Positions 32,930 through 34,195 of a DNA stretch of 64,000 bases are shown here, piece after piece. Numbering within the stretch: the first letter of the stretch is position 1; each line of letters begins with the position of its first letter. Below the pieces are notes generated by a model that was not told the DNA's origin, made no database searches, and saw only the letters and a program-made list of their open reading frames with translations. A program made the translations under genes and the position numbers. The stretch is from positions 248,001 through 312,000 of the forward strand of contig NZ_CP132339.1 of NCBI RefSeq assembly GCF_030944405.1, in the 5' to 3' direction. This DNA is from Janthinobacterium sp. J1-1 (GTDB lineage: Bacteria > Pseudomonadota > Gammaproteobacteria > Burkholderiales > Burkholderiaceae_D).

Positions 32930-32971
32930 CAACAATGTTGTCGGGTTACGCGCGAAGCGCTAACCCGACCT
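32930..32971. repeat. Palindromic intergenic repeat, copy 3, split by IS110 element
   Basis: CAACAATGTTG (32930-32940) then the hairpin GTCGGGTTA, C, GCGC, GAA, GCGC, TAACCCGAC (32940-32969) and CT. In the intact copies this is followed by AC; here the IS begins instead, and CCTAC resumes at 34190-34194. It starts 12 bp after the M16 peptidase stop codon. Confidence 0.88.
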
Positions 32972-32996
32972 TGTATTATTCCTCTCATGCGGTTGG

Positions 32997-33192
32997 TGGT
33001 GTTGCGAACAACATCGACCGCTGTCAAAATTCTTGGTAGGCATATCAAGACCGGGTAACTGGATGCCGTATCCGCCCTTAGGCTCAAAGCCAGCGATGTA
33101 GATCTCGCACCAGTTACCCACCCTCCATGTCAAGATCGGACAGTATCTTTGGCACCGGCACGCCGGTAGCCCGCATTCACAAGGTAGATCGC
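32997..33192 (+). ncRNA. Candidate bridge RNA of the IS110 element
   Basis: The leader can fold into three parts. 5' hairpin near 32997-33016 (TGTTG, CGAA loop, CAACA). Target loop: stem GGGTAACTGG / CCAGTTACCC (33053-33062, 33110-33119), inner hairpin GGCT-CAA-AGCC (33081-33091); left guide ATCCGCCCT (33070-33078) matches the target ATCCGACCT or ACCCGACCT in 8 or 7 of 9 positions, and right guide GATGTAG (33095-33101) is the exact complement of the right flank CTACATC (34191-34197). Donor loop: hairpin ACCGG-CACG-CCGGT (33154-33167); guide ACAGTATCT (33140-33148) equals the element's right end (34175-34183), and ACAAG (33179-33183) complements the left end CTTGT (32970-32974). This is the organisation described for IS621 bridge RNA. 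Transcript ends are guesses. Confidence 0.78.
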
Positions 33193-33206
33193 AAGAGGAC
33201 CACAGC

Positions 33207-34166
33207 ATGTTTAATTTAGGAATCGACGTTGCCAAGGCCAAGCTGGACTGCGCACTGCGCCTGCCCAATGGCAAGCACCGTAACAAGGTAGTAGAGAACA
33301 ATCACAAAGGATTTGCTGCACTGAGCGAATGGCTGCTCAAGCATGATGCCGGCAACCCGAGAGTATGTATGGAAGCGACTGGCACTTACTGGGAAGGGGT
33401 TGCCGAATATCTGGCCGGACTTGGCATGGTGGTCAGTGTCATCAATCCGGCACAGATGAAGGCCTTTGGCGCCTCGCGCATGGTACGCACCAAGACCGAC
33501 AAGGTCGACGCGCAGTTGATTGCCGACTTTGCCCATGAGCGCCAACCGCAGCCGTGGACAGCGCCGTCGCCCGCCGCGCAGGCACTGCGCGCCTTGGTGC
33601 TGCGCCTCGAAGCGGTGCAAGCGATGCGGTTGCAGGAAACGAATCGGCTCGACGTCGCGCGAGAAGCGGTACGCCAGGGTATCGAGGATCACATTGCCTG
33701 GCTCGACAAAGAAATCAAGGAACTCATTCGCGCCATCAAGCGCCATATCGACGATGATCCGGATTTACGCGATAAGCGCGAGCTGCTCGACAGCATCCCT
33801 GGTCTGGGTGAGCGCACGATACCAGTGTTGCTGTCGTACTATGCCGATACCGAGCGCTTCGACAACGCCAAGCAAGCCGTGGCGTTTGCGGGACTCGACC
33901 CGCGCCAGCACGAGTCAGGATCGAGCGTACGTGGCAAGCCACGCATGTCGAAGATTGGTCACAGTTTCCTGCGAAAGGCGCTGTACATGCCAGCCATGGT
34001 GACCGTATACAGGACACCATGGGGTCAGCGCTTTGGTCAGCGGCTCAGCGCTGCCGGCAAGCCACCGAAACTGATCATCGGCGCCATGATGCGCAAGCTG
34101 GTGCACGTGGCATTCGGCGTGCTCAGGTCGGGAAAAATATTTGATCCAACCTTGCACAACGCTTGA
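33207..34166 (+). CDS. IS110-family transposase/bridge-RNA-guided recombinase
   Basis: Recombinase of 319 residues. N-terminal RuvC-like DEDD domain with D7 (LGIDVAK), E56 (CMEATGTYW), D98 and D101 (TKTDKVDA); C-terminal Transposase_20 domain with [24 protein letters not shown] and RKALYMPA. The likely catalytic serine is S237. As I remember the IS621 residues (D11, E60, D102, D105, S241), every one is matched here at a constant offset of four. No frameshift or truncation is seen, so it may be active. Start ATG at 33207 follows AAGAGG. Confidence 0.93.
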
Positions 34167-34195
34167 CGGGGATAACAGTATCTACCCGACCTACA

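Follow-up and report, generated by a model that had tools for sequence, protein, structure and literature searches.

The window analysed here is a stretch of 64,000 nucleotides, corresponding to positions 248001-312000 of contig 1 in a 6.95-Mb genome, and its forward strand carries an IS110-family element at 32972-34183 (1212 bp, counting one CT core). These limits are based on the junctions of 13 copies of the element and on the uninterrupted REP sequence found in relatives. The CT core is common to the element and its target and is present at both edges (32970-32971 and 34182-34183). The recombinase gene (33207-34166, forward strand) encodes a protein of 319 aa that was identified from Pfam and NCBIfam models, the IS621 structure 8wt6 and its catalytic residues. 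It matches PF01548 (DEDD_Tnp_IS110, 98.8 bits, cut-off 29), PF02371 (Transposase_20, 86.9 bits, cut-off 21.3) and NCBIfam NF033542 (233.3 bits, cut-off 140), a model labelled IS110 family RNA-guided transposase. Among solved structures the best matches are IS621 (8wt6, E 8e-103, residues 4-318 aligned) and ISCro4 (9t56, E 2e-102), and identity to the plasmid copies of IS621 recovered by protein search is 52.5%. Residues D7, E56, D98, D101 and S237 (codon 33915-33917) align with D11, E60, D102, D105 and S241 of IS621, as numbered in excerpts of PMC11208158, and the DEDD residues and serine expected in the original prediction are thus all kept at the IS621 catalytic positions.

A DNA search of the whole genome returned 14 matches, comprising 13 full-length copies and one partial copy of 80 nt. 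All 13 full-length copies are located at the tail of a REP-like palindrome, AYCCGAC-CT-AC. Each left edge reads A[T/C]CCGAC-CT-TGTATTATT and lies just 3' of a palindrome of the form GTCGGATTACG...CTAATCCGAC, whereas each right edge reads ACAGTAT-CT-AC; past this AC, a sequence common to the 13 right flanks was not seen by eye. Among named relatives, the nearest to the element come from Janthinobacterium. The sequences named for the element are the donor ACAGTATCTTGTAT, the targets ATCCGACCTAC and ACCCGACCTAC, and the perfect guide site ATCCGCCCTAC.

In the window copy, the left target with its CT core, ACCCGACCT, occupies 32963-32971 on the forward strand as the 3' tail of the REP-like palindrome, and AYCCGACCT is found at this place in all 13 copies. 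The left target guide ATCCGCCCT (33070-33078, forward) is the same in the 13 copies and has C at position 6 where the target has A. The match of 7/9 predicted between this guide and the left target of the window copy was confirmed, as was 8/9 for the other repeat form, ATCCGACCT, which is present in 11 of the 13 copies; ACCCGACCT is limited to the window copy (L001) and L008. The right target guide GTAG (33098-33101, forward) pairs with CTAC at 34182-34185, the right junction, which combines the CT core with the target AC on the forward strand and reads CT-AC in 13 of 13 copies. The original prediction had instead proposed a 7-nt guide (33095-33101) for CTACATC at 34191-34197, but that sequence lies 9 nt past the junction CTAC and is at the junction of none of the 12 other copies; only the GTAG of the right guide pairs there. 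The right target is therefore the four nucleotides CTAC rather than CTACATC. A second ACCCGACCT at 34184-34192 (forward) is the tandem REP tail of the flank and lies outside the element, and the tandem tail ATCCGACCTACCCGACCTAC is uninterrupted at two loci of the same genome (L172 and L173).

The donor-binding part of the leader agrees with the ends of the element. The left donor guide ACAGTATCT (33140-33148, forward) equals the right end, or left donor, at 34175-34183 (forward), whose letters were checked against the 13 junctions, and the right donor guide ACAAG (33179-33183, forward) is the complement of the left end CTTGT; both guides are conserved in relatives, and both matches had been anticipated. 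By analogy with IS621, as described in passages of PMC11208158, AT at 33102-33103 (forward) is a candidate handshake guide of the target loop. GT at 33184-33185 (forward) may likewise serve as the handshake guide of the donor loop, and GT directly follows CAAG in 56 of 56 leaders. Every sequence quoted in the original prediction was found at its coordinates, and of its four guide matches, which it judged unlikely to arise by chance, three stand and the fourth was misplaced. Copies with an unchanged guide and unrelated flanks, named there as contrary evidence, were also sought: the guide is the same in 13 of 13 copies and the left flank is always the same near-cognate target, an outcome that favours the prediction.

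The bridge RNA is predicted to span approximately 32986-33200 on the forward strand, with limits drawn from the promoter and the conserved leader. For structural analysis, 28 leaders, including one from an E. coli IS621 copy, were aligned without structure and folded with RNAalifold, which returned a target-binding stem and smaller hairpins. The stem, GGGTAACTGG / CCAGTTACCC, encloses both target guides in a target-binding loop at 33053-33119 (forward) and is defined by covariation, with 98.2% of cells paired and changes on both sides in 8 of 10 pairs. Across the 22 leader pairs tested, 93.3% of cells are paired and 19 pairs changed on both sides; the count leaves out five pairs that join the left end to the right donor guide. 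The covariation score of 0.562 compares with 0.218 in shuffles (0 of 500 reached the score) and with at most 0.122 in slid controls, over which the structure has an advantage in being taken from the same alignment. Only 2 of the 22 pairs are supplied by the donor module, so that covariation is strong for the target loop and thin for the donor loop. The leader of the window copy (32997-33206) has a better fold than all but one of 200 shuffles (z -2.4), and the window contains no Rfam match at the gathering threshold. We regard the leader as a predicted bridge RNA with target and donor loops.

The ends of the element would also supply a promoter when they are joined. A -35 box, TTGACG (34163-34168, forward), overlaps the recombinase stop codon and a -10 box, TATTAT (32974-32979, forward), lies at the left end, so that the promoter forms only on joining of the right and left ends, which then read TTGACG-N17-TATTAT. 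By sequence, TTGA-N17-TAT is present at the circular junction in 46 of 51 elements for which both ends are available; the strict promoter pattern missed L010, L024, L041, L042 and the IS621 copy L151. A promoter across joined ends is published for IS621 in the portion of PMC11208160 cited here.

Guides and targets were compared across relatives. Among 120 loci scanned, 57 had no IS621-type leader recognisable by pattern (many of them cut contig ends or distant elements) and were left uncounted. In the remaining 63 both the leader and the left junction could be read, and removal of seven duplicate or gapped rows (duplicates L095, L097, L099 and L109, and L050, L100 and L120, which come from a single assembly where the element contains a gap) left 56 elements, among which there are 22 distinct guides (compared over positions 1-7) in 33 distinct guide-target pairs; the 80-nt partial copy L014 was also omitted, and the guide columns of L035 and L036 were moved by one so as to end at CT. 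Guides match their own targets at an average of 6.32 of 7 positions. Permuted guides and targets give a mean of 3.21 (sd 0.28, maximum 4.33), and none of 20,000 permutations reached the observed value, although this is no strict probability since the permutation ignores the shared ancestry of related guides. At least one fully matched target appears for 15 of the 22 guides in the 33-pair listing, and full matches to their own sites are seen for the unlike guides GCGACAA, GCGCATC and GGCCGAC. The poor fits among the 33 pairs are L019 (3/7), L036 (2/7) and L101 (4/7); L019 and L036 were kept in the permutation test and placed outside the mismatch classes. Of 21 further loci, 17 lack an IS621-type leader by pattern and four are readable; L175, L190 and L191 fit 7/7 by eye, and L176, apparently the same element as L027, fits 6/7. 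The target guides of the relatives therefore agree with the insertion site and vary as it varies. The natural mismatches, classed for 31 of the 33 pairs, divide into 9 wobble and 10 other, and no claim of wobble bias is made.

On the right side, GTAG is found in 54 of 56 leaders, and AC is present in 47 of 49 of their known right flanks. Two Xenorhabdus elements have the right guide ACAG: in L036 (X. vietnamensis) the right flank CTGT is an exact fit to ACAG, although its left side fits badly, and in L035 (X. koppenhoeferi) the flank CTTG fits only at CT. In none of the 56 leaders does AC follow the stretch coding for the left guide (TA 23, TG 16, TT 13, GG 3, CG 1; columns 33079-33080 in the window). 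Since right guides of the GTAG form call for AC, the DNA coding for the left guide falls short of a full target. Simple loop architecture may account for this absence of AC.

Potential target sites were counted in the genome against reversed-pattern controls. AYCCGACCT occurs at 209 sites (control 140) and AYCCGACCTAC at 102 (control 6), so that the 9-mer is little above control while the 11-mer is strongly above it. AC is present at 13 of 13 insertions, and the right guide probably makes targeting more specific, even though AC is in any case common in REP tails. The perfect guide site ATCCGCCCTAC occurs three times (control 2) and none of these sites is used, a supply too small to say much on preference; sites within one mismatch number 134 (control 66). 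Other uninterrupted REP tails of the AYCCGACCTAC type are present in the window, on either strand, at 6064, 20243, 20324 and 50570. A single Y1_Tnp (IS200/RAYT-type) match was found in the genome (L201, G000:C1:132180-132467). Two short REP patterns had no match within this 3288-base locus, and we claim no link between the REPs and a RAYT transposase.

The VOC-type flank downstream of the element was matched in 35 of 40 genomes of the genus, including its own, and the loci of 20 of these were retrieved. An uninterrupted AATCCGACCTAC REP tail lies at most 160 bases before the VOC-type gene in 5 of 19 relatives listed (L157, L162, L166, L167 and L171), and the right end of the element precedes this gene in none of the 19. 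Another species outside those 19 (G267) has a copy, L111, between the same two genes, with flanks matching the window at 88.5% upstream and 84% downstream. Of the two REPs at this site, that of L111 resembles the first and that of the window copy the second, and L111 has the other Janthinobacterium leader form. Because of this different leader and different REP, we read L111 as an independent insertion and regard an old insertion shared with the window copy as the less likely alternative.

Taken together, protein homology, covariation in the leader, covariation of guides with targets, the 13 junctions and the empty sites in relatives support identification of the element as an IS621-type member of the IS110 family whose left end encodes a bridge RNA, in agreement with the original prediction; it may already bear a name in ISfinder. 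We consider it very probable that this is an IS621-type insertion sequence of a Janthinobacterium-like genome that is guided by RNA to REP tails. Its transcript, circle and recombination are proposed by analogy, from homology to IS621. The element would excise as a circle, and its joined ends would form a sigma70-type promoter for transcription of the bridge RNA encoded in the left end. The REP tail AYCCGAC-CT-AC would then be read by the target loop (through ATCCGCCCT and GTAG) and the joined ends by the donor loop (through ACAGTATCT and CAAG), and the DEDD/serine recombinase would swap strands at the CT core.

Comparison of copies indicates that leader and coding sequence have diverged unequally. 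With the leader taken as 32970-33206 and the coding region as 33207-34166, the coding sequence of the window copy differs from that of L012 and L013 by 14% and its leader by a single inserted base. The corresponding coding and leader differences are 6.6% and 0.4% between L015 and L016, and 15% and 9% between the window copy and L015. The contrast in leader differences, 1 of 238 versus about 22 of 237 (the 22 being derived from a rounded identity), gives a Fisher p of 1.8e-6, and L011 is a mosaic with differences starting near element position 597. Leader uniformity is likely due to recombination through which leader forms spread, and constraint alone is insufficient to explain it. Leader-like DNA was found in 14 of 294 genomes of the family. 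At the levels of order and class, recombinases at E <=1e-70 were found in 13 of 399 and 9 of 369 genomes, respectively, with many of the order and class loci lacking an IS621-type leader by pattern. A distant DNA search of E. coli genomes gave no match, the IS621 copy having been found by the protein search of plasmids, and no relatives were found among viral contigs.

An unusual feature of the guide is its steady mismatch at position 6. The guide reads ATCCGCC in all 19 Janthinobacterium-type elements counted (the 13 copies of this genome and L015, L016, L096, L098, L110 and L111), and their targets read ATCCGAC (17) or ACCCGAC (2). Position 6 is thus a non-wobble C-T mismatch with the target bottom strand in 19 of 19, and position 2 forms a U-G wobble in the ACCCGAC targets, including that of the window copy. 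Extracts of PMC11208158 report a non-canonical G53:T pair for the structure of IS621. The simplest reading of the mismatch, and one we hold to be reasonably likely, is that it has no function and is a tolerated relic of a guide (ATCCGCCCT) for the REP of another host. A Rhodocyclaceae MAG element (L034) has both the guide ATCCGCC and the target ATCCGCC over positions 1-7, as this reading would have it. It also agrees with the rarity of perfect ATCCGCCCTAC sites, since 3 sites against 102 of AYCCGACCTAC lead to an expectation of about 0.4 of 13 insertions at perfect sites even without discrimination. Against a simple relic, the guide C has been kept over the approximately 9% leader divergence in the genus, though one base change would fit it to the target, and IS621 tolerated mismatches poorly in a published screen, as far as the cited section of PMC11208160 describes it.

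A functional mismatch is a reading that we think unlikely though worth stating: by analogy with IS621, the handshake U of the donor loop, and not the C of the left guide, would choose target base 6. This proposal is derived from published work (PMC11208158, in the passages cited) in which positions 166-167 of the bridge RNA form a handshake with positions 7 and 6 of the target. The handshake U would pair with the top-strand A after strand exchange, and an imperfect left guide might be kept since it favours that exchange. Its support is slight: in 56 of 56 leaders GU comes right after the donor guide; among the 31 pairs classed, both guides mismatched at position 6 go with A, and the two mismatched at position 7 go with C in one case and T in the other. 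The pair L019, outside the classes, has T at position 6 and counts against the handshake. Tolerance of a relic guide remains our preferred explanation, and the steadiness of the mismatch allows the weight of the left guide relative to handshake pairing to be tested directly, a question relevant to how specific bridge recombinases are.

Two broader alternatives affect the whole interpretation. That the copies are decayed, immobile relics is improbable: frameshifts in L003 (83 aa) and L008 (312 aa) are in keeping with decay, but 11 of the 13 copies encode the intact 319-aa protein and six (L002-L007) differ from the window copy by at most 5 nt. This closeness and the intact reading frames point to recent spread, judged from sequence, and we infer from them that the element may still be working. 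Least probable of all is that the protein alone reads the REP palindrome or tail while the leader RNA only regulates the transposase and its guide likeness is incidental; this would suit the 13 of 13 insertions in REP tails and a guide that is itself one letter off, but the other guides of relatives match other sites, several of them non-REP (GCGACAA, GCGCATC and GGCCGAC), no permutation in 20,000 equalled that agreement, and IS621 requires its RNA in vitro according to the cited part of PMC11208160.

The element provides a well-documented natural case of bridge-RNA targeting in which one guide accompanies 13 insertions in one genome, and the relatives supply a set of guides and targets that vary in concert. 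At 319 aa, the recombinase is small for a homologue of an enzyme used as a tool. The mechanism as such has been published before, and the element is an addition to the IS621 type with a documented REP target.

Comparison with known systems places the element closest to IS621. Likeness to TIGR-Tas is weak, with the NCBIfam Tas model aligned over residues 127-256 at 32.4 bits against a curated cut-off of 100 and the PDB chain TasH matched at E 7.5e-4, and membership was rejected. The IS1111 group of IS110, for which the cited part of PMC11208160 describes another bridge RNA architecture with donor-binding bases in a multi-loop, was likewise set aside, as the leader here is in the left end and aligns with that of IS621 itself. 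ISCro4 (9t56) has an IS110 recombinase in common with the window element and was compared at the protein level alone. With IS621 of E. coli (8wt6; PMC11208160 and PMC11208158, in the parts cited) the element shares the DEDD and serine residues, a bridge RNA at the left end whose guides follow the same order, the donor ACAGTATCT/TGTAT, the CT core, the joined-end promoter and REP-tail targets. It differs in its left guide (ATCCGCCCT here, ATCGGGCCT in the IS621 copy L151) and in the target, in having a non-wobble mismatch at position 6 where IS621 has G:T at G53, and in the longer 5' part of its leader.
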